This document shows, piece by piece, positions 1,574 through 32,796 of a DNA stretch of 38,133 nt. A model generated the notes under the pieces. That model saw only the letters and a list, made by a program, of their open reading frames with translations. It searched no databases and was not told the origin of the DNA. Both the position numbers and the translations under genes were made by a program. Position 1 is the first letter of the stretch. Each line of letters starts with the position of its first letter. This DNA is from Saccoglossus kowalevskii (Eukaryota; Hemichordata; Enteropneusta; Harrimaniidae), in assembly GCF_000003605.2 (NCBI RefSeq), contig NW_003124894.1:557298-595430 (forward strand), in the 5' to 3' direction.

Positions 1574-4194
1574 GCACTCAAATTGGTAATGTGATCACTC
1601 TGCCAGCATCAGGTCTACTCTGTGTATATGGGTTTTCAGGAGGATGGCCTTCAATATTTTATATCTTTGGTGAGTAAGTGAATGGTAAAAATAATATTAA
1701 AACTAATATGTGTTTACAATTCAGAGTGTGATTGTGCCCTCTTGTGACAAGTTTGTGAAGATCTTTTTTTTTTTAACAACATATGATTTATGTCAACAGG
1801 TGTTTTAAAAGCAGAGAAATTACTGGGTTTTTAACTTTAGAAGATTTCATGTTACATGGGTATTCACTGAGTTTGAAATTCATGGTTTTGTGAAAGAAAC
1901 ATTTCATAACATGGTTAGCTTCACATATTTAGGTGATTTAAATTAGTACATTTATGAGTGAAATTATCAAAAGCTCAGCTGTTAATCAAGCTCTTTAGAG
2001 TCTGCACACCAGGAATTCAAATAGCTTGAAGTTTGTTTGCGCCCTCTTGAGACAATTTTGTAATGACCCTTTGTTTTTAACAATTTATTTTTAGGTACAG
2101 CCACTCTAGTGTGGTTCTTGTTCTGGGCGTTCCTGGTAGCAGATTCCCCGGCCAAGCATAAACGCATATCAAATGTAGAGAGAATGTACATTGAACGGAC
2201 ATTAGCCGAGGAAAAAAGTGCACACAAGGAAGAGAAGGTAAAATATCAGCATCACCATAATTTGCTCAACATATACATATCTATTTATGAAAGATTGTCT
2301 TATACAATTTTTTTTTGGTACCCTTTTCTTGACAGCAACACCACGTACCCTGGTTTACAATCTTCAAGTCTATGCCATTCTGGGCTATATTGGTGACTCA
2401 CGTGTGTTGTAACTGGGGGACATATTCATTGTTAACATTCCTACCGACTTACATGCGAGAAGTCTTAAAATTTGACATCAAACAAGTGAGTTTTCTTTCA
2501 ATTTTTTATTATTTATTGTCAAACTTATAATAATTTCATTATGTCAAGAACACATTATGATCGCAGCTATTTATGTGTCTACGATAATGTCGATACTAGT
2601 AGGCAAAGCAAGAATTTGGGAATGTCCAAGGGAAAGGGGTGAATTTGTTGCTGAAAAATGCACGAAAGTTACAAAATTAATATATTTTTTGCGACTAGAA
2701 ATGTTTTGATATTTGATTATTTAATAGAAGGACAATACTTAGTGATACTCATTCCACTCATTGTTATTTGATTTTTTATTTGATGTTGTCTTTTAGAATG
2801 GTCTATATTCTGCTTTGCCTTACATTGGTTTTTGGTTGTTCATTAATATTGGTGGGCATATTGCTGATTTCTTAAGATCTCGGAAGATACTCAGTACTGG
2901 GAATACAAGAAAACTTATGAACACAATGGGTAAATATTAATGCTTGTTGTCATTACAATTATTAATGCCTAAAATGTTATGATTGTTTCATCGATAAGCA
3001 AATTATTCAAAATTAAACCCCAAATCAGAGAATAAATACACATAAATCTTTTGAATAACCAAATAAAATTTTCAAATTTGTTAATTTTTTTTTTTTATTA
3101 TTAATCAAGACAGTTTTGATCCAGACCTGTTACCTATTAGAAATTATGCCCATTTAGTCCAAAACAAAAAAACTACCGGGTATACATAAAAATGTATAAA
3201 ATGGTTTATAAAAATTCAGGCAGAAAAAATTTATTTTTTATTTATTCTAGTCATACCTATATAGTGATCCATCGTTTATTATTGTCTTTTTAGGTTCTGT
3301 AATACCTGGAATATTCCTAGTTATCACTGGTTATATGGATTGTACCCAAGCAACCACTGCTGTCATACTCCTTACCATAGGTGTATCATTCTCAGGATTC
3401 CAATATGGTGGTGGATTTCTCGTCAACCATGTTGATATTGCACCTAAATACGCTGGTGTCTTATTAGGTATAACTAATACTACCGCAACTATTTCTGGAA
3501 TCTTGGCTCCATACGTCATTGGTACTATTACCGTTAACGTAAGTGAAACTTTATTTGTGACTGCGCATATGTTTAGTGTTGACACATTCATATAAGGTAA
3601 TTTTTCTCGCTGCAAGATCTTGCGTATTGGATGAAATAATTTTGAACTTGACTTCCTTGTTTTTCATAGCTCATGTTGAAATGTTGATCTTTCATGGGAG
3701 AACTATGGTGTTGAGATACTCTACTTCATTAAAATGAACTACCCCTGGTATAATCAAATAGCATATTGTTAAGCATTGGAATAGGTACCATAAAATACTC
3801 ACATGTTTTTTGTATCTCATGCAATGTTTTAATGATGCTATGACTGTTGTTTTTCTAGTTTTTACACTTGCAGTTAACAGTACCAGTAAATCAAATACCA
3901 ATAGTGAGTTGAATGCCCTTGAAAAGTATCAACCTTTGAATATCCTAATTCTGAATTCATCTTTTCAAACTAATAATTTTGCAGCAAACTCAAGAGGAAT
4001 GGCAGATAGTTTTCTACATTGCCGCTTGTATCTATACATTTGGGGCCGTCTTCTTCATTATCTTTGGTAAAGGCGAGGTCCAGGATTGGGCAAAAGAGGA
4101 GCCAGACCAAGAAGATCCAGACCTGGCCAGGAAATTGATGTCTATCAACGGTTCCGATAAAACAGAACAAAAAGAATTTGAAACTCACATTTAG
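1574..4194 (+). CDS. Sialin-like SLC17 anion transporter, C-terminal part (six exons)
   Basis: Member of the major facilitator superfamily SLC17 branch (sialin / vesicular anion transporters), which move sialic acid, glutamate or other organic anions across lysosomal or vesicular membranes. Coding exons read as 1574-1669, 2095-2237, 2336-2485, 2797-2929, 3294-3538 and 3985-4194. All have AG/GT borders and matching phases (1,1,0,0,1,0), giving 324 residues after the split first codon. Visible motifs: [11 protein letters not shown]; the cytoplasmic loop SPAKHKRIS with [49 protein letters not shown]; and the tail KGEVQDWA before an acidic, soluble C terminus. These are positions where the sialin type is strongly conserved, and the SPAKHKRIS loop favours SLC17A5-like over the phosphate-transporter subgroup. 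Six or so membrane segments are covered. The start codon and first half are outside the window, so the substrate cannot be judged. Confidence 0.93.
3597..3805 (+). repeat. Dispersed repeat copy in last SLC17 intron
   Basis: About 200 bp that match 11021-11265 (MANF intron 3) in the same orientation. Shared blocks are the AGATCTTG block near the start, TTTCATAGCTCA, CTACTTCATT/TTACTTCATT, GTTAAGCAT/ATTAAGCAT and AAAATACT at the end. The two copies have diverged with small gaps. No terminal inverted repeat was recognised, so the class is unknown. Confidence 0.6.
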
Positions 4195-6249
4195 TAGATT
4201 TTAGAATTGTTAAGAAATTTTGTTCATTATGATCATCATTGCAAATTACTTTGCATATTTTAAGTGAAAGAAAAATACTGCCATAACAATATTTTCTTTT
4301 ATAATTTTGTTTTCAATATCAGCAGGTAATTTTTTTTCAATAGTGATACCAAATTATGGTAATGTTAATCTATAATTTCAAGAAAATATATCATCTGTAC
4401 TAAAGATGCATTTTCATTGGTTGATCAATGTCACATGATGTTACGTTATCAGATGATAACCTGGTTGAACACCTGATTGAACACATTTGTGTGTTAATCA
4501 GCAATATTCAATGTTTTCCATCATTTTGACATATCATCTGAACACCAAACTCATGAAATTCGGGAAAATTTTCTATGCATGTAAAACCGTTTAGCATACC
4601 ATTGCCTGTATATTCAATTTCTCAAATTATTACAATTATTATAAATACTCAAACACTGCCCATTACTGAATAACAAGGAAGAGATGGTCACTAAAACTTG
4701 AATCATTCAAGTTTTTGCCCATGCTGTGCTTCACACAATAATGTTCATGAGAGATCCTTATTTCTGAATTAATAACGAAAATGAATTATCGTAATGACAT
4801 TGTTTGACCGAGTTCTGATACAGTGCTGAAATATATTATAATTATTATAGCTGCAGAATATTATGGATTTGCTGTGCAGTGGCATCATGGTTGGCATGAA
4901 AAGGTTTATCGTATTACTAATACCGAAGGCTATATTCCACTGTCATAAGGACCAGAAAAATAAGTCTTCTTTATTGTGGGCACTAAATTTTAGAAAAAAA
5001 TGAAAGAAAAATTAAAAATTTTGTTAAAAATCACAAACGACAGTCTCAGTATAAAAATAAAAAGCTGCCTGTGCACATCGATTTTCAATAAGAAATTGAC
5101 TAGAAATATTATTTTTCATCTTATACAACATGAAAAAATGTAACATTTAACAAGAATACAAATATTATTCTCTCCAGAGATTCACAAATGTTTATATAAT
5201 AAAAAAAACTGCCATTCTTGTTCTTGAATAATTGTTGTCATAAATAATTATTGCATTATTACTGCCTGAGTAAAATAGATGGAATTCTATAGCTTTGTGG
5301 AGAATTTACTTTTTAAAAATATCACTGCCAAATTCTTTTTATTATGTAGATTATATTTTTCTTTATTTTTAAAATGATTTTAACCTGATTAAAATGTAAT
5401 AAACTAATATTCTTATTGAATGTTTTCAATATTTACCTTACTTAATACTTATTTTATTAAATCTATAAAGGTCAATCCGTTTATTGTCATTTTTACCTTG
5501 CCCATAATAATATTGATTTCCAAACACCTCATAAAAACGAGAGCATCCATAGCGGTGTCAACGTTTGTCTACAAAATAAAAGGTATTAATTTATAATTTT
5601 TGGCTAATATTACATTTTTGACTAAATTCACTATCAGCTATTACAAAAACTTATGAATATGTCCTGGCTGGTAATTAAGTTGATGCTGAGGAGGCTGTAT
5701 ATGTAAACTGTTTTTGGAGGGTTGTTTGTAGTTGGCTGGTATGAAAGGTAATCAGAGAAAAGTAAACAATAGCATAATTTTCAACAATCTTCATTGGAAA
5801 ATATCACGATTTTCCCGTTTAAGGGTTAACTATTTAAATCATGGTGGAGATTGGAGAATCTTTGTTTTAAAAGCTAGACAACGAGAGAAAAACAAAATGT
5901 CATACAAGGTGTTGCAGAGAAACACTGTTCAGCCATCGAACCACAGCCCGGCTCACAACTATCGAGAGTTTTGTTCTTCATACTCTCTCGAATTGATAAA
6001 ACGCCATCTGTGTTGAAATGTTGTAAGGGTATCATGTGACTTATGTTTGTCCAATCAGCGTAAGCCAGCTGGACTTCGTCTGCCTTTACAGGAACTTCAT
6101 TGATTTCGTCCACGTTGACTAAAAACGCCGGTACAGATTGACTTGTATCTTGTGTAGTAAGCAGGAGCAGTTGCTGCGGACAAAGTAGCTGCTGGACGAC
6201 CAACAACTTGTTTCTTACCTCAGGACAATTATATATATATATAATCAAA
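4195..6249 (+). other. SLC17 3' flank and MANF 5' flank
   Basis: Non-coding, AT-rich. It should hold the SLC17 3' UTR; candidate AATAAA signals on the + strand are at 5056-5061 and 5398-5403, and neither can be chosen by eye. From about 5880 the base composition becomes less AT-rich and the sequence reads as MANF promoter and 5' UTR. The open frames here (5732-6016 +, 5874-6248 -) have no recognisable domain and overlap this promoter-like region. Confidence 0.5.
6051..6069 (+). promoter_or_regulatory. ERSE-like element upstream of MANF
   Basis: CCAAT, exactly nine bases, then CCAGC, lying 181 bp upstream of the MANF start codon. The ER stress response element consensus is CCAAT-N9-CCACG, bound by NF-Y plus ATF6/XBP1. 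Half-site spacing is right and the first half is exact; the second half has its last two bases swapped. A separate CCACGT (XBP1/ATF6-type core) lies at 6110-6115. Vertebrate MANF is known to be induced through an ERSE, so the context fits, but function here is inferred. Confidence 0.45.
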
Positions 6250-9200
6250 ATGTATACTTGGACGTTAATTTCTTTGGTTGTTTTCGTCTTTCTCAGTTGT
6301 GCGTTACAATTTCACCAAACAGACGCCAAACTAAAAGAAGGCGATTGCGAAGGTAAGTTTTGGTTTTGCTGATTTGTGATAATCAAGCTCCGAAATCATT
6401 GTTTTTTAGTCGGTATCTCGCGTAACGGTAGCTTCCGTATATTTCCCTGTATCGCCGGCGATGACTTCGGACTTTATGATGACTCGTCACTTCCTGGTTT
6501 CAGCGCAGACGTCAGGTCCTAGGGCGAGCTACTGATTTGACCGACGATTCGTACATTGTACGTGTACAATCTCGACATGGAAATGAATGAATGAGCAAAT
6601 GACAAGTACATGTAGTTGAAAAGTAGCCATGTAGTTATCATAAAGTGAATATATTATTGATATCGAATAAGCATATAGTATACCATGGAGGTAGAAAGAT
6701 ATTGTATCTCCATGAGTATACCTACATAAAATTACCAGATACTATGAACACAAGAATAGTAGGTTGGTATACATAGTTGTAATCTCGAGACGAAACATAT
6801 GAAAGAATGATGAATACCCAGGAATATAGATATGCATATGCATGTGTTCGTTAAATCTTTACTATACATTGTATGCCATGATTTGGATATTGTTATGTTA
6901 GACAATGAAAAGTAATTTATGAACAAGCGCAATAAACAAGTCCTGAACAACATCTGCCAATGTAGTCCTTTTATGACGAAATAAAACACTAAAACTCACT
7001 TTATCCAATTTATTAGTGACATTCTATACGCATTAATAGTAATACCTGTAAAACAAACTCAGATTATCTTCATACAGATCATTTTCATGTAGTACCAGGG
7101 TATATCGGTATAATCTGTGAAGGTACAATGTGTACATCTGGTGATGTGCTTGCGGCTAATCTGTGGTTGCAAAATAGTTGGTCTTTGTTGTAAAATCCAG
7201 ATCAAATTAAGTTTTACAGGGTTAGGTATCATATGGTGTCCTGTTAATTGACCCCATCATCTTTCTTTCTCATTCAAAGAACATGCTCGCACATTCACAG
7301 TAACAAAGGATTTTCGTTTCAGTTCTTAACTTTGTCAATTTTGCACCATGAATTATTTTGAATCTAAATGCTAGCTTTTGAAATTTCACTCTAGTTTGGT
7401 GTTTTTGTTTTTGTCCATATATGCTATACAAAGAAGCTCACACATTAAAAAAACCCTCTGATAGCCTGTTTTTGATAGCAGTAAGCCAATGCTGTGCCAA
7501 TAGCAACTGTGTTGTAATTTGCAGTTTCCATTGGGGCTCTGTTTTGCTTGTTTACAGTGCCCTACAATACCAGTCTCAATAAAGTACGGTAACATAGCAT
7601 TTGTTTGTTGCAAGAACTATATTAATTATTAAACTCTCCAGAAATCAATATGTCACTAAATAAAAGCATATAAAAACGTTTCGACCAGAATAGTTTCGCC
7701 AGACTTCTACAAAAGCCACAGTAGTTTTTTTTTTTTTCCCTGGCTATGGTTATTTTGTACGTTACGAGCACTGCATGTTTATATTTGTATATACGTGGCA
7801 TATTTATATTCATTTACTGGTGTCTTCTATGTTTTCAGCAAATATTAATATGCCGCGAGTTAAATGATCCATTTATTAGTGTTTTAAAATGAATGCATAA
7901 TATCATTGTTTAATATTGATTTTTCTTTCAGTGTGTATTAAGGTACTTACTGACTTTGAAAAAAAGCTAACAGATGAAGACAGAAAAGATTCATCATTTA
8001 TCGACACAAAGTTAAGGAATCACTGCAAAAATTTGAAGAACCAAGATAACAGATTTGTAAGTGCATGTATATGTATTCAGTAGATAATATGTCAAAAATG
8101 GGAGATTTTGTATCGGTGAAAATTTCCTAAAAGGTCTTAAAGACATAGAGTATAAATGTTAATTGAGAAATGTTGTCACTATTATCATTATCCCATCAAC
8201 AATCTGTTCTTGAAGCAATTTGTTGTTGCACCCATATTTAATATACAGATTGTGAAAATATTTTAATTTTATAGTTTTGTAATTGGTGGTTTTATTCAAA
8301 ACTAGTCACAAGGCCCATATTGACCTGTGACTAATAAACTAAGAAACATGTATGTTCACTGACATTGTGTTTTAATTTATATTCTGCTGCTAATAAAATA
8401 CAATGTGGCAGTCAGCTGAGACCTTAGTCCAATAAAACACATATTCAACCACTATGGTATTGTAGTACCCATATAAGTACCATATGGTGCATTTGAATAA
8501 TAATAATTACAAGAAATTGTGCATGTCTGGTTCCATCTGTTCATATCTCGCACATGCTTTGATCAATAAACGTTGTATATACATCAGTACATGTGCTGAA
8601 CACAGTGGTACCTTGATACACTTCTTTTGCTTTTTAAATCTTGTTTAAAATGGCCGTTTGGCAGCAATTTTGGTTTGAAGAATGTAGTTCTGAATCTATA
8701 TATGCGACATGTTCATGTATCAGCAATAAATCAAAACTGGCTGGCTGGCGGTCATCTGGCAATTCTACATCTTATGTTACTTAAGGTAGCGGGACTATTA
8801 TTTGCATACTTGTTTTCATTTTATAATTGTGACTAAATGACTACAAATAGACCCGGGAAAGTATATATTTTTAGAATCGCCAGATTTCAAGCTTTTCACA
8901 AGTGTATTTTGCATGCCGGTATCTGCATTCTACGACGCGTTACTCAATCAAAGGTGAAAAATTACTTTTTCTGTAAAGAAAATAATTACGCATTTATGCT
9001 GGCGCTACCTAGACTATTATTTGTGTTGAAAATTACGATTTTCACATTTATTTATTAATTTTCAACACAAATAATAGTCTCGCTACCTAGACTATTATTT
9101 GTGTTGAAAATTACGATTTTCACATTTATTTATTAATTGATGAAATGCACTATAAACTTTCATGTGATAAAGTCAACATAATATAGAATGTCATGTAAGT

Positions 9201-11630
9201 TGGTGAAAATGTAGATTTTCTGAAGGGAAGCAAGACAGCCTCAGTAGTGTTTTCCAAAATCAGCAACACAGGTTTAATCTGTGTGCCTATAAGTTTCAAA
9301 GATAAACTCAAGACAAAGCAATGTTAGGATGTGTTATCAGTAGCTATCTGACACACAATGAGTGTTTCCAAACATTTGAGTGGTTTGTCTCCGCCCCTGT
9401 TTGTTTCACAGATTAGTCATTTGCATATGAATGCGTTAGACACAAGGTCACACAGCCACTGAAAAAAAATCATTGATTTTGGTGTTTTCATATGCCGAAT
9501 TTATCCAATTATAGCTATCCCATTCCTTTATTTTTTTGGTTTCCAATAGCTTTACACATTTGGATGTCCCTACACATGTTAAAACAGACCTTGATGGGAA
9601 AACAAACTAAAACAGTAATTGAAATTCAGCACACTATTTTTTAAAACTCGTTGCTTGAATAAAACTGACCAGACACATTCACATTACCTGACTATTGAAC
9701 AACTAGGAAAAGTGAAAAAAATATTTCTTATCGCCAGCATAAATGCGTAATTATTTTTTTTACAGAAAAAGTAATTTTTCACCTTTGATTGAGTAACGCG
9801 TCGTAGAATGCAGATACGGGCATGCAAAATACACTTGTGAAAAGCTTGAAGTCTGGCGATTTTAAAAATATATACTTTCCTGGGTCTATTTGTAGTCATT
9901 TAGTCACAACTGGAAGATGAAAACAAGTATGCAAATAATAGTCCCGCTACCTTAATATGGATATTGCTTCAGTAGTTGTATAATATCCTGTAATATAAAC
10001 AAGAACTATGTCGTTACCAGTGACTTGTTTAATTTAGTGTTGCCTTCTTGGTTTTTTTACGCATGAAATTTGTATTATAATTACTAGTAAATAGTAATAG
10101 GTTTCAGAATCTACTGTACATATGAATTTCAATGGTAATTTTGCTTTGACAGTAATGGCATATAGCATGAAACTTTCATTATTTTTTATTTTCAGTGTTA
10201 TTATATAGGTGCTACAGCTGATGCAGCAACTGGTATTCTTGGAGAAATCTCCAAGCCATTCACAATGCATTTGCCACCTGCAAAAGTGTGCGAGAAACTA
10301 AAGAAGAAAGATAGTCAGATCTGTGAATTGAAATATGGTGAGTAGTTCTAGCACATGTGCCAATGACTTATGTCTGAAGCTGGTTTATTCCACTGGTGCT
10401 CAATAATTGTGTAAAAACACTGCATGTCTGGTGTATCAAAAGTACATGTTGTTGTCTAGATATTGGCAGCCATCTTGGTGACTTTTCAACAGTTTCCTAT
10501 ACCTTTAACACGTACCTCTAACGTACATTGTGGGGAGGAGCACTTTGGGATGTCACATGCAGTTTATTTGACCGGTGCATTCATCTGCACTTGACAATGA
10601 CTGGCTGGTGGATCTACCATGCTTGAAAAACTATTGATAGAGTGAATTATTTCTATTGCATGAGTACCTAATATGAAATCTAGGAAAGTGGTAGATCCCC
10701 GAGGTGCTGTACAGTATACATGTCGTCAATAAATATTGAAACTACATCTTGTAAAATACTCTAACATGTTCTTGATAATTCAAGATGAGCTAATTTTACG
10801 TGGTCGTGGTTCAATTTGAGTGCTGTGTAGTTGTTTATCCTCATTGTATGGAGTACTCCTCACCTGCCAAAATAGTGTTTAGTTAGCAGATTTGCATTAA
10901 ATTGAAGAGATATAAAATGTTGTTGTATTTTTCCCCCAATTCTCTATATGTAAGAAAACTCATTCTTGGAAAGTGTTGAATTTTGAAATGCTTATCAGTT
11001 GCATACAAGAGAAAGCAATAGGTGATTTCCGGTTCATCTGCGAGATCTTGAAAGTTGGGTGAAAGACGTGCGCCGTACATCTGCCGCAAAAATCGAACGA
11101 TTTGATTTTGAACTCAAATTTCTTTATTTCATAGCTCACATGGAAATGGCCAATCTTTGACAGGGAATATTGCATTTGAATTACCCTTACTTCATTGAAA
11201 TTGACCATCAAATGTGTACAGCACGTTATTAAGCATGGAAATGTCCCTAAAATACTTTCAGGTTTGTGGAATCCCTCGCCTCTGTTTGTCGCTGCCATGA
11301 ACGTTGTTTGTCCTGTTTTTACGTTCAATTTCACGCATAATGCAGGATTTCGCAGTGAACAGAAAATCCTGGGATTTTTTTTCAGGGAGTGTATAAATAA
11401 AACTGTAAATTGCGATTGTTCTCAAAGAAAATGAATTGCCACATGTATATCTTCTTTTTTCAGAAAAACAAATTGATCTGAACACTGTGGACTTGAATAA
11501 ATTGAAAGTGAAAGATTTGAAGAAGATATTAAACGACTGGGATGAAACATGCAAGGGATGTGCAGAGAAATCAGATTTTGTGAAAAAAATTCAAGAACTG
11601 AAACCTAAGTACTATAAGCAGGAGCTTTAG
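6250..11630 (+). CDS. MANF: MANF/CDNF-family neurotrophic factor, complete, four exons
   Basis: Mesencephalic astrocyte-derived neurotrophic factor: a small ER-resident, stress-induced and partly secreted protein that supports ER proteostasis and cell survival. Exons 6250-6352, 7932-8056, 10196-10337 and 11464-11630 join in phase (1,0,1) to 178 residues, close to the usual ~180. A signal peptide covers about residues 1-26. The saposin-like N-terminal domain includes [12 protein letters not shown], and the SAP-like C-terminal domain includes [10 protein letters not shown] and the CKGC (CXXC) motif. All eight family cysteines are present (33, 36, 66, 77, 108, 119, 153, 156). It ends in KQEL, a KDEL-type ER-retrieval signal in the position of the human RTDL. 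The start is the first Met before the hydrophobic leader. Invertebrates usually have a single MANF/CDNF gene; the symbol follows the ancestral type. Intron 2 carries a foldback element (8781-9955). Confidence 0.97.
8781..9955. mobile_element. Foldback / MITE-like element with 224-bp inverted arms in MANF intron 2
   Basis: The left arm 8781-9004 and right arm 9732-9955 are near-identical reverse complements of equal length (224 bp), separated by about 727 bp of non-coding DNA. The outer ends read TTAAGGTAGCGGGACTATTA on both strands, so TTAA sits at both borders and may be a target duplication (a piggyBac-like habit) or simply part of the arm. No transposase frame is present. The similar short open frames at 8837-9058 (+) and 9684-9899 (-) are the same arm read twice and are not genes. 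A third, diverged partial copy of the arm lies at about 37345-37440. Confidence 0.8.
9003..9138. repeat. 58-bp direct duplication around a 25-bp perfect palindrome
   Basis: The 58 bp at 9003-9060 recur without change at 9081-9138. Between and overlapping them, 9011-9035 and 9056-9080 are perfect 25-nt inverted repeats around a 20-nt loop. The arm ends (ctagactattatttg, tcgctacctagac) resemble the terminal bases of the enclosing foldback element, so this looks like a small internally rearranged or nested copy. The identity of the two 58-mers indicates a recent duplication or gene conversion. Confidence 0.8.
11021..11265 (+). repeat. Dispersed repeat copy in MANF intron 3
   Basis: Diverged direct copy of 3597-3805, in the same orientation. 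Shared blocks include TGCGAGATCTTG near the start, TTTCATAGCTCA, TTACTTCATT, TTAAGCATGGAA and CTAAAATACT. The two copies lie in introns of neighbouring genes. Confidence 0.6.
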
Positions 11631-13519: not shown

Positions 13520-14305
13520 TTAAAGGGTGATACTTGAATGACATGCTGAGCTTTTGTCGAGTAGACAATGCATAGAAGAATTGCACAACCCTTGGATCCT
13601 CTTTAACCAGTCATCAATCTCGCGTTGAAATCTGGGAATTAGTTTTGCAGGAACACTAAAAGAATAAATCAGTTGCCCCACTGTATCAGTATTCGTTGTT
13701 GGGTTGCAATTGACGTATGCTCGGTATGTGGTCAGTAACACCATACTCAGACAGTTTGAAACATCCCGAACTTCTTCCGTGTTATACCAGTAAATAACTG
13801 GGTAACCAAGTAAAATTCCAAAAACTGTAGAAATATTCCATCTATCGCCCGGTTTGAGCTCGAGTGGAGCAGGGGAGGCACTCTCTAATGAGAACGCCCT
13901 CTGTAGTTGTAACGTGTGATCCAAAACTTGTCTGTGACATTGACAGGATGCTATCTGGGGTTCGGGCAATGTGTTTGAAACGTCAACAAGAAAATTGCTC
14001 GTCCGCTCCACAATTTTACGCAAATGGGCGACAATTGATGCACGGTTGTAAATAAACACATCATCTACCAGTGATAAACATGATAACTGTCCTGTCAATC
14101 CAGATTTGAAAGTTCCGTTGATAAACTGCTGCATCTGTTTTACATCAACTGATGCAAAGTCAAAGAGAAAACTTGGCTTGATTCCTCTGTCGACAGAAAC
14201 AATGTTACTCAGTATATCCATAGTTTTCTTCAGACACGATTTAGGCAGCTTTTGTTTGATATGTTTACGCCACTCAAGAACATTTAAATCACAGGGCGCA
14301 GCCAT
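13520..14305 (-). CDS. UPF0739 (C1orf74-like) protein, intronless
   Basis: Single-exon 261-residue protein of the UPF0739/DUF4504 family, whose human member is C1orf74 (269 residues). Biochemical function is unknown in any species. Seen here: an N-terminal basic helix region; KPSFLFDFASVD at residues 43-54; and the strongly family-like GILLGYPVIYWYN at 163-175, followed by a Cys/Thr/Tyr-rich stretch (CLSMVLLTTYRAYVNC). There is no signal peptide or membrane helix. The Met is the first in the frame, and its context (ACAAAATGGCTGC) has A at -3 and G at +4. The gene lies on the opposite strand to its neighbours, convergent with MANF and divergent from the EF-hand-like gene 1.5 kb away. Absence of introns matches the human coding region and does not suggest retroposition. 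Confidence 0.88.
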   Translation of the reverse strand: MAAPCDLNVLEWRKHIKQKLPKSCLKKTMDILSNIVSVDRGIKPSFLFDFASVDVKQMQQFINGTFKSGLTGQLSCLSLVDDVFIYNRASIVAHLRKIVERTSNFLVDVSNTLPEPQIASCQCHRQVLDHTLQLQRAFSLESASPAPLELKPGDRWNISTVFGILLGYPVIYWYNTEEVRDVSNCLSMVLLTTYRAYVNCNPTTNTDTVGQLIYSFSVPAKLIPRFQREIDDWLKRIQGLCNSSMHCLLDKSSACHSSITL

Positions 14306-15829
14306 TTTGTGCCCTTCAGTTAATTACTTAGACCCTTTAAGACAGTAAAGATTTTAAACATGCTGGCAAGAATAGTACAAATTAAGCTGTCATTTCGTAA
14401 ATATGTGTCACTTTTTGTACTTTATATTAATTATTGATTTTCATTTTTTATTGTGTGTGAAATTTATAAAAATAAATATGCAGAACGATGTCAAACAGTA
14501 CGTCATGCTGCACTATTCGAAGCAGCCATACTAAAATCTTTCATATGTTAGGTAGTCCATAGATACCTTTGACGTCATATACAAGCTTTCAGGAAACCAA
14601 GGAGTATTATTGTAAATATAATCTCATGAAAGTTGGATTTGAACTTGTCAGAATCATGTTTTGAGTGTCTTTCGTGGTTATTAGGTATGTATACGTCGTA
14701 ATCGATACGGCCCGACTTGGTAGAGCTGCAACGACAGATCTTGATTTCAGCACGGTAGCTTGACACGGGATGAGTATATATTATTTTACCTGTTCACTTG
14801 TTTGCTTTCTCATGGGCATAATATCGCGTCACGAACACGTATACCGACGTATTGATTATTAATTTAGCAAACAATTTCAGTGCCATATTGTCAATCAACA
14901 GTGATTTGAGAAGTAAATAACATTGACTATCTAGCACTGATTTCTTCTTTCAAGTTCTAATTTCACCGTGCAAAATATTTTCATTTATTTGTACGTTGGA
15001 GTCAACATTGAAACCATGTTTATATACTCATAAATATTTATAAACACAATCCATCACAATATTCTTTTTTAATTTCTTCACACTTGAGTGATATCAAATT
15101 CAAAATAAAATACATACTATCTGTACATTCTTTATATTTTTTATAATTGTAGAGTAAAATGTGTAGCTGCTGATTTTAATTAAAATGTAGGTAAATAAAT
15201 AATTTATAATATTCATGTTTTTGTTGACACCAGTGTATCAACATCTCCTAGTACTGGCTACTCTGAAATCAACAATGCTGTGTACATTATAAACTTTTTT
15301 TAAAACCTAAATAATTATGTTCTCAAATGCCTGTTACACATTGTATGAGCGTGTACATTGACCTTGACTGTTCCAATTTCTTCCCGATTGATGCATGAAT
15401 TCTTAGCTATACATAGGGTAGTTTTGTAAAGAGACTAAATTCAAATGAAAAAGTTTTATACAGCATATTTATGACAAATAAACATGCCTTTATTGACTCC
15501 AGGGTGAACTTCAACTACTTAGAAGCATTTATTTATGTGAATTGAACTAATAAAATTGGAGATAACAATAATTTAAGATAAAAATGAACAAATCTATAAA
15601 ACATGTATCACCTTCTGTAAATATTTATTAAAATATAACATGCCTCCTCGAATAAATAAATAATGCAGGATGATAATGAAGTAAAGTAATTGTATCCCTG
15701 TGTGTATATTTGGCCATATTATTTTACCCAGTAGTATATAGTTGGCAATCATATCCTATTGTAGATTTGATGATAGTCTGTTTTACTGAATTGTTAATTA
15801 TTTTTCAATGAACCCCAATTTTTTTTTAG
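14306..15829. other. Divergent 5' gap between C1orf74 and the EF-hand-like gene
   Basis: AT-rich non-coding DNA between two genes pointing away from each other. An acceptor-like T9-AG ends at about 15830, just before the EF-hand-like gene's start codon, so that gene probably has a non-coding first exon somewhere in this stretch; its donor could not be identified. The only motif singled out is the palindromic CRE at 14570-14577. Confidence 0.45.
14570..14577. promoter_or_regulatory. Perfect CRE palindrome TGACGTCA
   Basis: Full CREB/ATF-type consensus 265 bp upstream of the C1orf74 start codon, in the gap shared with the divergent EF-hand-like gene. Motif seen directly; role inferred. Confidence 0.35.
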
Positions 15830-21976: not shown

Positions 21977-24900
21977 TCAAAGAGACGTGTCTTCAATCAC
22001 ACCGCTGTCCCTGTTGCATTCGTGTTGCAACAAAGCCGTGTGCTTTGTGTAGGTGGTTGTGGCAGTTACATGTTGACTTGGTGAGTCATCCGGGTCAGAT
22101 GCTACATCTTCTTCGCAGTACGAGTAAACACCAGATTCGGGATTTTCCTTCACTGAAAGTAAAACATAGAAGTACATAACAATAACGTTCATAACTACCT
22201 TATACTAAAATATGAAGATACACAGATAGGGGAAATGTCACATGGCATGGAAACATAATGCTTTCGTTTGTCTAGGTTATGTGATAAATATTTTGAGTGT
22301 GTATGTATTAAAATATGTAATCATAGTACACATGCAATGTAAATAGAATTATGTGAATTTGCATTGGTGGTGGGAATTACCATGCCAGTTTATACAATTG
22401 TGAATAATATAAAAGTGAAAGGCGTTTTCTCATTAGTGTGTATCATTTATGCATACAATTACATATCTCATATACTTTGTATCATTTTAAATTGTACATG
22501 GTATTTCCAGATTCACACCGGTTGTTAATGGCACATACATTAGATTCTCAACAAGATAATGACAAGTTTCTGCCACTCACCACGAAAGCCACTCATCGCG
22601 AAGCTACTATTATGTTAACAAATAATCCTCTGTTAGTCTGTGCTCGTATCAGAAAATGGCAACAAGGATTTGCGTTAGGGTGGAACTTTACATTATAGAT
22701 ATGTATAGATTGTAACTTACTAGCTGTTACTGTATTATACGTCTCGTCTTGTTTCACTTCTAAGGCTGGCTGCTTCTTTACATCAATGCGTTTATGCTTT
22801 CTCTTGCATTTACTTCTCAGTCGTACAAAGCCTTTCTTAGGAATGCACGGTATGGATGCTCTTTTCAGGTGACCGTTAGAAGACGCTGTCTGTGATTCTG
22901 AATCGTCGCTGCACGATTCCTCCGCTGTGTCGGCGATTTCCGAGACATTTCGACGTAAGCCGACATCACAAGTCGTCCCATACGTATCAAATATGTAGCG
23001 CCTTAACAACATGGCAACGTCATTCCTGTTTTTCTCTTTAAAGAAATGAACAAGTGCCTGAAGATGCTCCTTTGTGATTACACCAATTTTACAAACCCAC
23101 ACTGTTAACACTGCCTTTGTGGGGCTTTTCTTCTTTGTACTTTGGCCAGTCTCCAGAAGAAGTATTTTGTTCATGTCTAAACCCACATGGTGTGCGAACG
23201 TCTTCCAGTCAGTTACAATTTGGTCCTCTTCAATGTTGTCCAGCATTCGGCATATTTCGTTTACGAGTGTACCTGGTAACATAGCACCATACATGCTATA
23301 TTTCGTTTCCGGTGTCTACATAGGAAAATAACAACTATAAATGATGAATAACATCGTGGTTTTGCTGTGGTTGTATTACTAAGTTCATCTGTGTGTTTAT
23401 TTTATGCGTCACAGTCATCTCTCTGCGTCGTGTTCGGTATGGGTTCTATGCTATTTATACATCCAGCGATCCCACATATTTTTTAAATCGGAAAAAATAG
23501 ACGAAGGAAAGTCAAATTCAATTTAATTTATAAAACAAATACCGGTTTGGTGAATATTAGTTTGTTTTTTTTTAAATGTCGAACACGCTTTACCTTCACT
23601 TTGCCGATATTAGTAGTATAGATTTTACCGACACACTTGGAGGCGTGGCCTGTTTGGAATTTTACAAGAAGCACCAATCACAATACTGGCTACGAACCAG
23701 AGCGCGATGCCAACTAATTCTTAGTTCTCTGTGATACAACGTGTGTAAAATATATTATTTATTTACATGCAATTCAATTGGGCACTGCGTGTTGACAGGG
23801 GGCGCGTTAATGAATCCATGTAAACATCTAAAACTACACATTATGTGGCGTAATTCCGGATAACAATTTCCGATGCCCAATGATATCATTGTTATTTCAA
23901 TTTGGTTAACTCACCTTAATGTCCCCAGGCGCAGGCTCGGATATATTGAATTTGACCACAGTGTCTGCGTTTTCGCACAGTCCCATTTGTCGGATAAGAA
24001 GGCGGCAGCGGAACTGGCCATCAGAATTGCGCATGCTCAATACAAAAGTGGCGGAGTCTTCCATTCTCCATAGTTTGTCGTGTGACATCTGAAAACACAA
24101 ATTTGATATTACAATAAAACGACTAATTTAATAGAGAATATTTTTAAAAAGCTACCTTCTTAGTAGTAGCCGTTTTGACCCACATTGTGACACTGAAAAA
24201 CACCACATAAAGAAAATGCGGGTCTCCGATTTTTCATAGAATCACAAATTATGAAAACATTTATGAAAAGTAATTTTTCTCAATTCGTTATGTCAAGTAG
24301 ATTAAAAAATAAGTAAAAGTAATTTTTCATGGAAATTGTGTTTCACATCATTATTCCGTAACATTGACGTAAAACGTCAGACAGTTTGTGGGGCTCGAAC
24401 TTTAAACTAGATTATTTTTATTTATTTTTATTTTGCCATTTCAAAACATATTAGTTGTACAGTGTATGTTTTATAACAAGTGTGACAGTAGTGTGGTCAT
24501 TCTATATTCTAGCAAATGTATAAAATAGGATACCTGTTCAACACCATCATCGTCACCTAAACTCCAGTCATGTGACAAATTCATTACGCGAACTTCAACA
24601 TTTTCTGTTTTCTCCCTGAATAATTGCAATTTTCTCTCTATATCTGCCTGTTTTCCACCAAGCTTGTTTTCCTTTTTCTCGCATTCCTAGAAAAAAAAAC
24701 AGTCAGACAAGTCGTTTTGATTGGATTGTTTTGTGTAGTCATTATTTCCAAACGTTTTGTATATAAGCGTTTTTTTTCACATTTTGTTTTTTCATATTGT
24801 TTTAATATATGCAATATTGGCCCCAGACTATCGTTTTGTTACTATACAAGTAAACTCACAATATGTCAATTGACATGAAACACATAGATAGATATATACA

Positions 24901-27900
24901 TACACATGAATATAGCTAGAAATGTTTTTGGTCGCCACCAGGGTAATTTTTCGGGTATCTCCTGTGTGTTTAGTTATGCGTAGCATTGTTATCATAACGA
25001 CATTGTATTTAATATATATGAAATTTTCTTTTTAAAAAATCAGCTAGTGGCCTCTTAATAATAGTAATTTCAATATCGGGTCATTGAACATACCTCTAAG
25101 GAGTAGGGTCTAATTCCATATAGCCTCAATATCATATCTGGTCCACGGCGTTCCAGAAAAGGGACGAATAAAACGTATATTGCATCTGGTTCCCCCTCTG
25201 CTCCAAAACCAGTGAAATGGTCAACCATAAATATGATGGAGTCGTCTGAAACCCGCAACACATTGTCTTCCGCCTGCAAGTAATCGGTCTTTTCGTTTAA
25301 GTCAGTCTGAGTAATTACTGGCACAAACTTGCGCTGTTCTCCTACACAGTGTGGTACGGTCAGAAACACGTTGTCGTTGAACTTTTGACTTGGCCCGCAG
25401 AAAACAGTCGGTGCGATTGCAACAGTGTTCCTTTTTACACGTGACTGGTGTGCGTCTTCGTTCGTCACGCAGATGTACACTTGCCGTTCCGTGCCTTCTG
25501 GTATTGCGCCGGGTGGTATGTACAGTTGAACATCACGTAACTTTAAGGTTCCCCCGTATTGATCGAACATTGCCGCCTCATAGCTACACGAGTCGGGTTT
25601 GTTGGCGGATGGAACGCCGTGAATTTGTGAGATGTCAATACGAAAAGGGCATCTCTGCGTTTCTGAGTAATTTGGCAACGCATTTGTACAACCATCACAC
25701 TGGCGATCTGTCTCTATTCCTCTCACGTCTTTGTTTCCCGATTGTTCTGGTTCATTAGTTTGACACGTATCTTCAAGGTTGCATTTTCCACTCTTCCCTG
25801 AGATAGACGCCGACTTTTTTTCTTTACCTGTGAAGGGAATTAGTTGTTTACAATATCCACCGAATAAGTAAACACTCGACAAAACGGAAAGGATTATACG
25901 AAAAGAACTTTTACGATTTGATGTCGACAGGATCACGTTAGACAGATTAGGGTCGTGTGCACGTTCTCTGAAATGGTGTCGTGATTACTGAATTCGATGG
26001 ACTGTACGTAAAAATATACACGAATTCAACGAAGCCTGATATACTAGCTTATGTATGATTTTGTTGAAACTATGAGTTTATCTTCTCAGTCACGATAGAC
26101 GAGTCAAATTTCGAGTGCAAAACTATCTGAAACTTATGCCTTCTACTATTGCCATGTATTGACTCGGGTAATTAGGTCTTGGTTATCACGTGTAAGTCAC
26201 GTGTGAAATGTTGGTAGCGAGGCTTTTCCCGCGTATCGAATCCTGCCTTGTTTCAAAACATGACTAAACTAATTCAATGAATATCAGTCGCTAATTAATA
26301 TAATTCGTGTTTTTCTTTCATTATGCTATGCCGTAGATTATACATGAATTGAGAAAACTTGCCTGTAGTTACACCGCTGCTGTGTAACTTGCTTTTATTC
26401 CTTGCCTGCGGTGTTTTCGATATGTTTTGTAATTTCTTCAAGAGTTTCCTTTTTGGTCTATGTTTACCTGCAACGTATAAGCAATAACATGTTGATGTTT
26501 CACAGTTGAAATTCTCAGTTGCTGCAAAGTTCAACCGATGATATCAAATTGAGTACGCTGTCATGGGGATTGTCGCTCGCTGCGTCACTATCTAAAATCA
26601 TTCAAAAGTGCGTAATTTAACCCAAAAAAATGTGAAGTAGATTCTAGGCATCTAGAATCCAGATTTTCACGAATATTTAATATTGTTAGTGAATATGAGT
26701 TTTAAAGAGACAATGTGGACATGTTTAAATTATTTTGTTTGCAAATGCAAATCAGGTTGATAAAAACAGTGTGAGATGATTTATCGTAAAATAAACACGC
26801 TGTTATTCATTTGATGAAATAATTAAATAAAATGCTTGCACGTGCATGGCATGGGCTTCAAATTACCTGTACGTTCGTACGCATGCGCTTTTGCGTTTTA
26901 CAGATAATTACCTTTCTGGACAGCTATGCTTGGAGCTTCTTCTTCTTTGTTGATTTCATTATTGGCATGTGCATAGTCCGTTGAGCGTGAAATTGAACAA
27001 TAACCGAGTTTCTGATTGATAACATGTTCACTGTTTTGGGAAAACAACATCCCACCGTTCAAGGGTTTTCGTGGCTTTTTCCGCCTCGTTATTGTTGCTC
27101 GTTGGTGACGTTTAAGTTCAGGCAACGACGAAAATATATCATATTTGGCAGATTGTCCTGTAGTATCGGATTGGCCATAATTACCATCGTTGACCAAACT
27201 GACCATACTATTCCTGGACTCTGTGAAGAGATGACACGTGTTCAATTGATATAACTAATTACTACTGTGTTACTTTATATATTTTCTATCAGTGTCGCTA
27301 ATATTTTGCTGTTGGGGTAGAAGCCTACGTGAAACAGTGTTCTATTGTGTGATATAGTGCCGAAATGTAAGAGAACTGCCAACAAAACAATTGATATTTT
27401 TCGAACGGTTACTTTAACACACTAATATTTTTCATGACCCATTTTTTAAAAAAAAATAACTATAACAAAATGTACCTCCATTACACACGACATATAATTG
27501 TTTTCACTCTGTGTCACCGACCTACAACTTGAGACACGGCATAATATCTCAACCAATGGCAAAATGGTCACCCGTTCACTATAATATAATCCTCGCTTAC
27601 TTTCGAACGATGATCCTGAGCTTCAACACTTTTTTCAAACCAGCTTTTTTATATTGTACAATTAATTTCAAACTTAATTAATTTTTTGTAAGCGTATAAA
27701 GCATTTTCCACTTTAAAGGTCGTAATTCGTATGCAATTTCCAATTTTGAATTTTTAAACACAAATTATCAAGTATATTATAAACATGTGAAATGTAATTA
27801 AGAATTTGCTTTATCTGTAAAGTGTAAAAACCTATTTTTTACTATAAATGAAACTTTCCATTTTATTTCCTGTAAAAACGTAAAATGCATTTTTATTTCC

Positions 27901-30516
27901 TGTAGCCAATACCTGCTATCCCCTTCCCTTACTGGGCTAAAGGTTAAACACGTCAAACATATACAAAGTATATATTAAATAACATCGACTTAAAACTTTT
28001 CATAATACAAAGTATATTTTTTTTGTTTATTTTTTTTTTTAATATTAACTCCTAGAAAGCGTAGATTAAGTTATGTCTATGATTGTTGTATCAGTTGTAT
28101 GTGTACTAAACAGAGTTTGTTCCATGTTATTTTATTGTTAGAGATGTATGTAACTATAGTATGTAACTATAGACAACTTCCGATTTGAGGAATCAAATGA
28201 ACTTAAAATTCTGTGAAATCGACAGCAAAAAAACACACACAAAATTGAACATGTTGGATTTAGTAGAGGGAATATTAATATGCAAACGATAGATCCCTGA
28301 CACATCAATTACAAAGATTACACCAATTATGTGTATAGATTCATTTCATAGATAATGTCAGATAATAACGGAATACACATCACAGTTACACAATATTGTG
28401 TATTGTCATGATTTATTTCCATGTGTCTAGAGATCGATCACTGATACGAATTGATAGTTGGTTTCATGTGAAGTGCTGGGTGTCATCATTCAACGCTCTA
28501 CCATAACCTGTCATCATTTAAGCTTATACAAGGTACTGGGCGGAACTCTAGTCAGTTATTGGAACTAATTACGATACAAACTTTGCTAACAGACTGTTAT
28601 TCCCGACAGTTTGGTATGTGTAGTTTCTTAATATAGCGGACAATTAATCAATATATATGACGTGTTGAGTACTTCGTGTGATTGGCTACATGCGAGTGAA
28701 ATGTTTGGAGGCTACGCCTTAAGCTTTTAAACTCCCCTATAATTGGCTAAAGTTTTGGAACGTAAATAAAGTGAGTCTTGGTCAGTCTGAGAAAGATCTC
28801 CACTAGACGAGGCGAGTCTTGAGAGTGCTCCACGAAGCGAGAGAGTCTTGGGGCTTTTCCCCGGGGTATTTAGTCTTGGAGAGTTTTCAACGAGCGACTA
28901 AGACTAGAAGTTGACACGTATTCTATATCTGTGTGTGTGTCTTTGCTTGGTCGAAAGGTGGCGAATGTAGCGATCCCGTGTACATGAGAGAAGGTTTAAT
29001 AACACGATAATTAAGCCATCATAAAACCACAGTCCCTCTATGATAGAGGGACTGTGATAAAACACAGAACACGCCGATCAAAATCGTGTGTTGTATTCAG
29101 TTGGCTTCCTCTGCCTCGTGATAAGCTTAATTTGAACCTTTGTTTATAGTATCTATAACTGAACAAATAAGCAAAACGTGCTGGTTTACTGAAAATAACT
29201 CTCTCCCAATTATAATTGTTTTCATTTGCTAGTTCTTCGAAAACTTACTTTAATATTACACCGAATTCGGCACCACTGAGCATGTTACTGCAAATATATG
29301 AAATGCATTGTGGAAGATAAACTCCGATTGTATATAATGAAAACCTAGCACTACTATATCCAGTCTCACTAAATTTTATGTAATTTTTTCAAAATGATTT
29401 CACAAGTTAGATTTCATATTAATAAAATTATATGACTTTTTCATGAAGAAATAAACTCCCCATGGAAACCAGTGTAAACATGATAATTTTTCATGATAAT
29501 TCACACTTTTCTATCCCAAAAGGTCATCCTGTGACCCCTTTTTCATTTCGGTATTCTGATGGTATTAACTCAGAATAATGAAAAAATGACGATCATGACA
29601 TATAAACTTCAATTCGGCTCTTAAATATACATCCAGGAAGAAAACTATTAGCCCCAAAAAGCGAATAGTTTCTGGTCAGCACACCATTCAGTTCGAAATG
29701 TGTATACCTCTACTTTATTTAATGCTATCTGCTAAACTTTTCGATAAAAGTTCTGGTGGTTTTAATCGTACCAATTAATATTTAAAAACTTGTTTTGTTA
29801 TTTATTTTTCGCTCACCGTAGAAATGACCAAAAGTAGCAGTTGACAGTGGAAGCTGCATATCGGGCAAAATAGCATACGTATTTATTTTAACTTGAGCTG
29901 AAATCGGTAGTATTCTCCCTCACCAGCAGCTAAATATAACCACGCACAAGTTAAAAAATGTTAGTTTGATCTAGCATGAATTGCCTCTATTTATTATCAA
30001 CATATCACCTAGTAAATACCTACCTGTTGGTTCTACCGCCCACGGGTCGTGTTCATTGCAGCTGACCGCACAGTACATTTCCTTCAACCCGGCGGTTACC
30101 ATGACATCGTTCAAACTTGTATAACTTGACTCATTTCTGTAACGTGCGCACTCTTCGTACAGATTTTGTTGTTGTGACCTATCTGTTACCACCTCTGCCA
30201 TTGGGTCTTTTGGTCGAATTGTTAAACCTTCCATCTCATGTATTGTTTGCGAAACTTTTGACTTATTTTGTGCAATGGTTTCTACATCCACAGTGTTTGG
30301 TATTTTGGACGTAGCTGTCTGACGTTCTAATCCCTTCTCTCTCGCTTCAGCGTTGTCAATCGTACACGCCATTATTTTATGGTCTGTTTCATCTGTGTCG
30401 ATCTTCTCATTTACATTTGTTATACATATTCCTTGATCGTGATTATTCGTTGAATCTGTAAGACTCATTGTTTGGTTATTCTTCTCAGTTTCGATTGTCA
30501 GACAGTCTTTGCGCAT
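21977..30516 (-). CDS. Soluble ZU5-UPA-death domain protein (UNC5-tail-like), eight coding exons
   Basis: Exons (minus strand) 30516-30024, 27220-26912, 26467-26363, 25827-25094, 24686-24534, 24088-23915, 23315-22721 and 22152-21977 join in phase (1,1,1,0,0,0,1) to 912 residues ending at TGA 21979-21977. ZU5 spans about 389-513 (LYIPPGAIPEGT, CGPSQKF, LTVPHC); UPA about 514-655 ends in a conserved-looking VKFNI; the death domain about 669-765 has DWKTFAHHVGL and VLTVWVCKIGVITKEHL. This is the order of the UNC5 netrin-receptor tail and of UNC5CL, where it holds an autoinhibited death-signalling module. No Ig, thrombospondin, signal peptide or membrane segment is encoded. The first AUG after an upstream acceptor (30675) is in frame with the long open frame, so a soluble protein is likely. 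Residues 1-388 are unrecognised, hydrophilic, with basic exons 2-3. Intron 3 has a GC donor. Exact N-terminus is the least certain part. Confidence 0.88.
27675..27930 (+). repeat. Dispersed inverted repeat, copy A (partner 35557-35808)
   Basis: About 250 bp within intron 1 of the ZU5 gene. GAATTTGCTTTATCTGTAAA, GTGTAAAAACCTATTTTTTA and TGTAAAAACGTAAAATGC, among other blocks, are matched in order by the reverse complement of 35557-35808. No coding potential. The two copies lie about 7.6 kb apart in opposite orientation. Confidence 0.85.
28550..29000 (+). mobile_element. Possible solo LTR or LTR-like fragment
   Basis: A less AT-rich island in the 2.8-kb intron 1 of the ZU5 gene. An ATTGGCTAA box near 28742 is followed by AATAAA at 28765-28770. 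Then come four AGTCTTG phrases at 28774, 28815, 28844 and 28872, separated by GA-rich and CG-containing spacers. A TG-repeat and the phrase GGTGGCGAATGTAGCGATCC follow near 28960. A poly(A) signal followed by a repeated structured tract resembles an R-U5 boundary. No gag, protease or polymerase frame is adjacent and no target duplication was confirmed, so this is tentative. Confidence 0.3.
29021..29063. repeat. Perfect 29-nt hairpin flanked by a 7-bp direct repeat
   Basis: CACAGTCCCTCTA (29028-29040), loop TGA, then TAGAGGGACTGTG (29044-29056). The hairpin is flanked immediately by ATAAAAC on both sides (29021-29027 and 29057-29063). The direct repeat looks like a target-site duplication around a minimal inserted hairpin. 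Confidence 0.85.
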
Positions 30517-31579: not shown

Positions 31580-32796
31580 AGTCCCCGTTAAGTTCTCTTT
31601 GTGCTCGTCATATTAAAGCGGAGGGGTTGTCGCGAGCGTGTCGATGAAACTTGAGTTCCAGGTGGCGTATACAACAGATTGTTTATTTACATCAAAACAC
31701 GTGCTTCGTGTCATAGTAATATGGCCAAAATAAAAACAGCCGTTATTCAGCCATCTTTGATCTGATTATGAAACACACTGATATGTATGATGTATGTGCC
31801 AAATACGAATGAAAATGGTACATAAATTGTGGAAATATAGTAGTAAGGCCAAAAAGTCAGATGGCTGTCAATCGGCCATCCTTGACCAGATTATGAAACA
31901 AATTGTCATGGACATGCATCCTAACATGTATAAAGTACATGTACTAGTATGTGCCAAATTTGAATGAAAACTGACAGAGCACGTCCAAGATACCGCATAA
32001 AAAACAAAAACAAGATGCCTGCCAGTCGACCATTTTTGATTCATTTGTGAAATAAATCATCATAGACATGTATCCTAACATGTATAATCCATGTACCAAG
32101 TTTGAATGACAACTGACAAAGCATGTCCAAAATACAACATTTTCAAAAAACAAGATGGCTGCCAGTCGGCCATTTTGAATCAAATCGCTAAACTACTGCA
32201 TGTGCATATGTCCCACATAAGGTACTAGGCACATGCAAAGAATGAACGGAATCGGTCCACAGGATTCTGAAATATGACGTTGGATAGACTGACGCACGGA
32301 CAGACGGATACACGGACGGTCGGGCGGACAGACTCAGGAACTCACGGACGGTCGGAGACATGTATCCTAACATGTATGATCTATGTACTAAATTTGAATG
32401 AAAACTGACAAAGCATGTCCAAAATACGACATTTTCAAAAAACAAGATGGCTGCCAGTCGGCCATCTTTGATCCAATTGTGAAATAAATCATCATGGACA
32501 TGTATCCTAACATGTATAATCTATGTACCAAGTTTGAATGAAAACTGACAAAGCATGTCCAAAATACAACATTTTCGAAAAAACAAGATGGCTGCCAGTC
32601 GGCCATTTTGAATCGAATCACTAAACCACTGCATGTGCATATGTCCCACATAAAGTACTAGGCACATGCAAAGAATGAACGGATTCGGTCCAAGGGATTC
32701 TGAGATAGGACTCCGGACGGACGCACGGACGCACAGACGGACGGAGACCGAATTATAAGTCCCCGTTTTCGGACTTCGTCCGAACGGGGACTAATA
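31580..32796. mobile_element. Pearl / Helitron-like non-autonomous element with ~140-bp satellite core
   Basis: Starts near AGTCCCCGTT (31580-31589) and ends in a hairpin with AGTCCCCGT...ACGGGGACT arms (32758-32792). The core is a diverged ~140-bp tandem unit (CAAGATGGCTGCC at 32151, 32443, 32584 and a variant at 32011; GACATGTATCCTAACATGTA beside each). There is also a larger ~432-bp duplication of unit plus GCACATGCAAAGAATGAACG plus an ACGG/ACGC-type tract (32280-32350 and 32700-32750). The last hairpin base pairs run into CTAA-T, matching a Helitron-type 3' end (hairpin then CTRR, inserted before T). Core satellite, ACGG tract and 3' hairpin are hallmarks of bivalve 'pearl' elements and related Helitron-like elements. 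The open frames at 31944-32651 (-) are the repeat translated. Confidence 0.65.

Follow-up and report, generated by a model that had tools for sequence, protein, structure and literature searches.

Among the closest described systems for the gene reported here are the ZU5-bearing signalling proteins UNC5CL (ZUD), PIDD and CARD8. UNC5CL is reportedly autoprocessed, as Heinz is said to have described in 2012. It is also described as recruiting IRAK1, IRAK4 and TRAF6 (PMC7570868). According to D'Osualdo et al. (PMC3210808), PIDD is cut at HF/S immediately after each ZU5 and CARD8 and NLRP1 are cut at SF/S, Ser, Thr or Cys being usable as nucleophile in such reactions, and in UNC5b a Leu replaces the essential Phe. 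The ZU5 of CARD8 is described as being held to the UPA and death-fold half after the self-cut, and activation follows when the N-terminal half is destroyed (PMC9213247); UPA itself is described as promoting filament assembly and lowering the filament threshold (PMC7794386). Autoproteolysis has already been predicted for TRADD-N proteins carrying ZU5/FIIND (PMC8195603), and thus the idea that ZU5 proteins other than the vertebrate PIDD, NLRP1 and CARD8 are cut is in itself an older one. The annotation class is not new either, since "UNC5C-like" transcripts are named in RNA-seq reports from clam and oyster (PMC4769524, PMC13070813).

The window, by which we mean the whole stretch of DNA analysed, comprises 38,133 nt of the Saccoglossus kowalevskii assembly GCF_000003605.2 (contig NW_003124894.1, positions 557,298-595,430, forward strand). 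It contains a real gene, whose product is a variant of the UNC5CL/PIDD kind in soluble form, built from domains that are already known. Eight minus-strand exons from 30516 to 21977, each lying where the original prediction had placed it, join as proposed there to a stop-free frame of 912 residues, and the AUG at 30516, which had been taken as the first, does lie in the open frame, where a stop codon stands 81 bases above this AUG. The features of the gene are as follows.

30516-30024, minus strand: exon 1, aa 1-164, from first AUG to a phase-1 donor, net acidic, disorder-like
27220-26912, minus strand: putative exon 2, phase 1-1, with basic cluster RRKKPRKP at aa 210
26467-26363, minus strand: putative exon 3, phase 1-1, Lys/Arg-rich, GC donor, the least certain exon
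25827-25094, minus strand: exon 4, conserved lead-in, entire ZU5, HFT site and probable start of UPA
25340-25573, minus strand: ZU5 domain, aa 388-465, Pfam E 2.9e-16
25211-25219, minus strand: His506-Phe507-Thr508, predicted autoproteolysis site, cut predicted between Phe and Thr
24686-24534, minus strand: exon 5, probable part of UPA (open frame, counterpart in paralog L016, UNC5B profile alignment)
24088-23915, minus strand: exon 6, probable part of UPA (same three grounds as exon 5)
23315-22721, minus strand: exon 7, death domain and start of tail, with basic cluster KCKRKHKR at aa 825
22995-23255, minus strand: death domain, aa 677-763, Pfam E 2.5e-8
22152-21977, minus strand: exon 8, C-terminal tail with ESGVYS, DSGVIED and the stop codon

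All seven splice acceptors of exons 2-8 read AG, and the donors are GT after exons 1, 2, 4, 5, 6 and 7 and GC after exon 3. Codon usage makes exon 1 look coding, leaves exon 2 doubtful and gives no support to exon 3. In the claimed frame exon 1 scores 0.289 bits per codon (best of six frames), exon 2 scores 0.134 (third of six), exon 3 is without coding support at -0.046 and exon 8 scores 0.404, to be read against 227 non-gene ORFs of at least 34 codons whose mean was 0.009 bits and whose highest value, 0.40, came from one ORF of 36 codons. Since both of these weaker exons are phase 1-1, the frame would survive if exon 2 or exon 3 were skipped or wrongly placed. The true protein might then consist of exon 1 and exons 4-8 (774 residues), with exons 2 and 3 intronic or alternative, and we judge this slightly less likely than not. 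Besides their shared phase, the missing coding signal and GC donor of exon 3, the weak signal of exon 2 and the single exon that precedes the ZU5 exon in L016 as modelled all favour the shorter protein. Against it, both doubtful exons keep the necessary frame open and have AG acceptors. Either length is compatible with the autoprocessed protein proposed below, and the two proposals do not compete. As a separate observation, GTAAAC/GTAAAG stands directly 3' of the acceptor AG of exons 3 (26467) and 4 (25827), a resemblance to recursive splice sites that may be chance.

The gene can be compared exon by exon with L016, a ZU5 locus on contig C303 of the same genome that splices to 774 residues and whose exon boundaries were placed by eye on the pattern of the window gene. 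The two genes agree in intron phase at five places, with phase 1 ahead of the ZU5 exon, phase 0 ahead of each of the two UPA exons and of the death-domain exon, and phase 1 behind the latter, and identity across ZU5-UPA-DD is 40%. Since the introns of L016 match in position as well as in phase all the way from its ZU5 exon to its death-domain exon, exons 4-7 are, on this comparison, one gene, and the alternative that the eight exons belong to two genes, which the original prediction had named, was not found for them. Exon 8 very probably belongs to the same gene, because the tail ends are similar (PESGVYSYC in the window, PDSGFFSVC in L016), the tail of L016 having one exon more. L016 as modelled has one leader exon and no counterpart of window exons 2 and 3, and no convincing alignment was found between its leader, the only other one modelled, and that of the window gene. 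Both tails carry DSG-type motifs, ESGVYS and DSGVIED in the window (22152-21977; aa 860 and 903) and DSGFFS in L016 (7505-7611); the pattern [DE]SG..[STDE] occurs twice in the window tail and once in the L016 tail, as against 0.14 and 0.20 per shuffle. We take these motifs to resemble beta-TrCP phosphodegrons.

The protein was predicted to hold ZU5, UPA and death domains without receptor parts, with residues 1-388 matching nothing recognised and forming a novel N-terminal half. The domain content is confirmed by Pfam for the ZU5 and death domains, and the UPA after the ZU5 is supported indirectly. UPA is not listed in the Pfam search of the window protein, and L016 scores against UPA (PF17217) at E 4e-4 and 20.5 bits, under the curated cut-off of 27; the UPA region is covered by alignments to the UNC5B structure 3g5b, both by phmmer (aa 390-732, E 1.3e-8) and by a two-sequence profile of the window protein and L016, which aligns to the ZU5-UPA-DD structure over profile positions 7-375 of 410 (E 1.7e-20). 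Pfam found no domain in residues 1-381, with nothing under E 0.07 nor close to a cut-off. FoldIndex gives negative values to all pieces of the leader and to the tail (771-912), whereas ZU5, UPA and DD come out positive. The novel half thus stands as a region free of known domains, but its composition suggests disordered sequence and not a new domain, and the support for two of its exons is weak.

Set beside the known systems, the window protein shares ZU5, UPA and a death domain without Ig or TSP1 (neither was found by Pfam) with UNC5CL. UNC5CL is shorter, at 518 residues according to the original prediction, and has an N-terminal membrane anchor, whereas the window protein has 912 residues with a long leader and tail, and no membrane stretch is present in this model (best 19-residue Kyte-Doolittle mean 0.905). 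PIDD1 is described as combining ZU5 domain(s), UPA, a death domain and the HF/S cut after ZU5 with LRRs (PMC3210808); the window protein has the same domains and an HFT, but a single ZU5 and no LRR in the 912-residue model by Pfam. CARD8 is described as a disordered leader and ZU5 followed by UPA and a death fold (PMC9213247), a layout like that of the window protein, although CARD8 has a CARD at its end and SF/S as its cutting site where the window protein has a death domain, a tail of about 140 residues and HFT. The ZU5/FIIND proteins described in PMC8195603 are fused to TRADD-N, a domain that Pfam did not find in the window protein.

The death-domain part of the window and L016 profile finds UNC5H2 (E 0.0045), IRAK3 (0.0055), ankyrin-3 (0.0071) and Pelle (about 0.014), while a better value (4e-5) goes to the whole chain of ankyrin-2, with no single stretch passing; the window sequence alone finds IRAK2 at E 0.054. 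Such similarities are too weak to name a partner. A single-sequence AF2 model of the death domain (mean pLDDT 63.2) gave only non-significant Foldseek matches, the top row being IRAK2 at E 0.091, and the ZU5 model did not succeed (mean pLDDT 37.6).

The best clue to mechanism, newly noted here and absent from the original prediction, is found at the end of the ZU5, where the window protein reads DHFT (aa 505-508), that is, the [HS]F pattern followed by one of the possible nucleophiles Ser, Thr or Cys. In an alignment of 17 ZU5 rows from this genome (the window, 15 loci and the joined UNC5, with L020, L029 and L031 left out), HF[S/T] occupies the site in 13, and the remaining four read GFS (L018), HLI (L027), TLS (L030) and RLS (canonical UNC5); outside the alignment L020 has THFT and L031 has VKYG. 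His506 and Phe507 are each kept in 14/17 rows and both are among the 22 most conserved columns printed, which past position 462 include only these two and Arg537. UNC5B has DQLG at the aligned place in the two-sequence-profile alignment and in another, a contrast that depends on the alignment because phmmer set the window FTG against a later FTG of UNC5B and not against LG. The conservation of His-Phe is no proof of cutting, since a ZO-1 ZU5 chain, in a low-scoring alignment, keeps DHF followed by Gly (DHFG); His-Phe would thus be partly a feature of the fold, and only the Thr points to cutting. The ZU5 precedents in the papers cited here are cut before Ser; Thr is chemically allowed, but no ZU5 example with Thr is among them.

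The window gene belongs to a large set. A profile search of the 572 Mb genome returned at least 32 ZU5 matches; 19 loci besides the window were fetched with their flanks, 12 matches lying outside this set. Searched with a death-domain HMM built from five sequences, 10 of the 19 scored at E < 1e-4, namely four seeds (L014, L016, L024, L027) and six new loci (L012, L020, L022, L023, L025, L026), whereas L017 (at a contig end), L019, L021 and L028 did not score at that threshold. In the ZU5 tree, midpoint-rooted for drawing only and with L028 on a long branch, the window gene pairs with L016 (support 95/93), and a starred seven-row split (96/99) unites the window, L016, L017, L019, L021, L024 and L028 separately from canonical UNC5 and L020. 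Among the six loci nearest the window gene the death domain was found only in L016 and L024, both HMM seeds, and the group may not be uniformly ZU5-UPA-DD.

The locus that we take as canonical UNC5 lies on contig C1732, with two UPA matches downstream of a ZU5 match, TSP_1 13 kb further upstream on the same strand, and an Ig-like exon readable by eye (L015). Its ZU5-UPA-DD tail is common to UNC5A-D and the window protein. It differs from the window gene in having TSP1 and the Ig-like exon, in a ZU5 split by introns where that of the window gene lies within one exon, and in reading DRLS where the window protein reads DHFT. Two further loci carry long open frames. L020 (reverse strand, 2389-4311 of the reverse complement) has a single frame of 641 codons in which a hydrophobic stretch (19-residue mean 3.2) is followed by ZU5-UPA-DD with its THFT site, the same layout as UNC5CL. 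L030 (reverse strand, 1307-5617 of the reverse complement) has a frame of 1437 codons ending in ZU5, receptor-like, with seven segments at hydropathy of at least 1.6. The original prediction had presented the window gene as a receptor-tail module without the receptor; receptor parts are indeed missing from the gene model, but this is less odd than it appeared given the number of ZU5 matches, the anchored-looking L020 and the precedents of UNC5CL and PIDD. Anchored-looking, soluble and receptor versions in one genome make direct comparison possible.

The explanation we prefer, and to which we give about an even chance, is that the product of the gene is a soluble ZU5 | UPA-death-domain protein that processes itself and serves in signalling, of the same type as UNC5CL, PIDD and CARD8 and a member of a lineage-expanded group. 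Its observed base is the domain order, a model without an anchor, HFT at the end of the ZU5 and kinship with the other ZU5 loci, from which we infer cleavage, expression and an immune role. On folding, Thr508 would attack the Phe507-Thr508 bond, and the N-terminal half (leader and ZU5) would stay bound and restrain the C-terminal half (UPA, death domain and tail). Removal or displacement of the N-terminal half by a pathogen protease, the proteasome or the binding of a partner would act as trigger, and the freed half could then cluster via its UPA and recruit death-domain partners, among which the example of UNC5CL makes kinases of the IRAK/Pelle type, signalling toward NF-kB, the first candidates. 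CARD8 appears to be the closest working model for such a mechanism, and the protein may serve innate immunity or cell death, either as a self-cut sensor of danger or as an adaptor in signalling. If HFT cuts, self-cleaving ZU5 | UPA death-fold proteins would form an expanded family here, beyond PIDD, UNC5CL, NLRP1 and CARD8, and receptor UNC5 would be the member lacking the site.

It is rather unlikely, though worth weighing, that the protein is instead an adaptor that is never cut, in which a closed UNC5-like ZU5-UPA-DD assembly is opened by a partner attaching to its leader or tail and HFT is a remnant of the fold. The Gly at the nucleophile position of the ZO-1 chain agrees with this, as does the almost end-to-end alignment of the module with the UNC5B structure, but every one of the 13 aligned rows that bear HF continues with Ser or Thr, and canonical UNC5 has RLS. 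The autoprocessed protein could be given a more specific form, by analogy with CARD8, as a death-domain tripwire whose disordered, rapidly changing leader serves as bait, so that destruction of the leader removes the self-cut ZU5 and UPA-DD seeds a Myddosome-like platform; this we put forward as speculation that is probably wrong in its full form. Should the remaining paralogs have leaders as unlike one another as the two compared here (window gene and L016), an invertebrate would possess in this group a diversified bait repertoire.

Quite improbable, in our judgement, is a nuclear regulator imported by the basic clusters of leader and tail, its death domain acting in nuclear scaffolds. The death domain of PIDD has reportedly been proposed to act in such scaffolds. 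Candidate import signals are RRKKPRKP (aa 210) and KCKRKHKR (aa 825) in the window protein and KRRSRRRR (aa 719) in the tail of L016, but basic clusters are common in disordered regions, and RRKKPRKP falls in the doubtful exon 2. For a cytosolic or nuclear location, and for an immune role, the pointers are the basic clusters and family precedent, and those only.

We consider it highly doubtful that the gene encodes a membrane protein with further exons, for a signal, an ectodomain or an anchor, that precede the part of the gene inside the window and are spliced to exon 1 via a phase-1 intron. An AG 14 bases before the exon 1 ATG permits a phase-1 acceptor within the open frame, and because of it a coding exon upstream of the AUG at 30516 is not strictly excluded, the in-frame stop above the ATG speaking against one without being decisive. 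All introns from exon 1 to exon 4 are phase 1, exon 1 of L016 starts two bases after an AG just ahead of its own ATG, and L020 is an anchored-looking cousin; furthermore, the 8 kb next to the window on the upstream side of the gene are all N, so that an exon far upstream could have escaped notice. On the other side, the upstream regions of the window gene and L016 are without convincing ORF similarity, and none of the nine minus-strand ORFs (at least 70 aa) upstream of exon 1 in the window has a Pfam match over cut-off, the lowest E being 0.03 for an integrin Ig-like model (14.2 bits against a cut-off of 23.6). A TSP_1 profile search of the genome, in which 150 of 256 candidates were scored, gave at least 137 matches, and none of the matches listed lies on the contig of the window. 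The absence of the extracellular and membrane parts of UNC5, as originally claimed, holds for the protein, which shows no Ig, TSP1 or membrane stretch, and in these nine ORFs Pfam finds no Ig or TSP1 over cut-off. That the window gene is a broken UNC5 is ruled out, the genome separately holding a canonical one.

Other features of the window lie outside this gene. On the plus strand, 6142-11627 includes an exon with ARMET_C (MANF-type) at 11409-11627 (Pfam E 3.5e-25), and the ORF at 6142 looks by eye, without Pfam support, like the signal-peptide exon of the ARMET_C gene. On the minus strand, 13520-14320 encodes a DUF4504 protein (E 9.2e-41), apparently in a single exon, and 31944-32790 holds repeated ORF fragments with like pieces, by eye, in L017, L019 and L024, a dispersed repeat.
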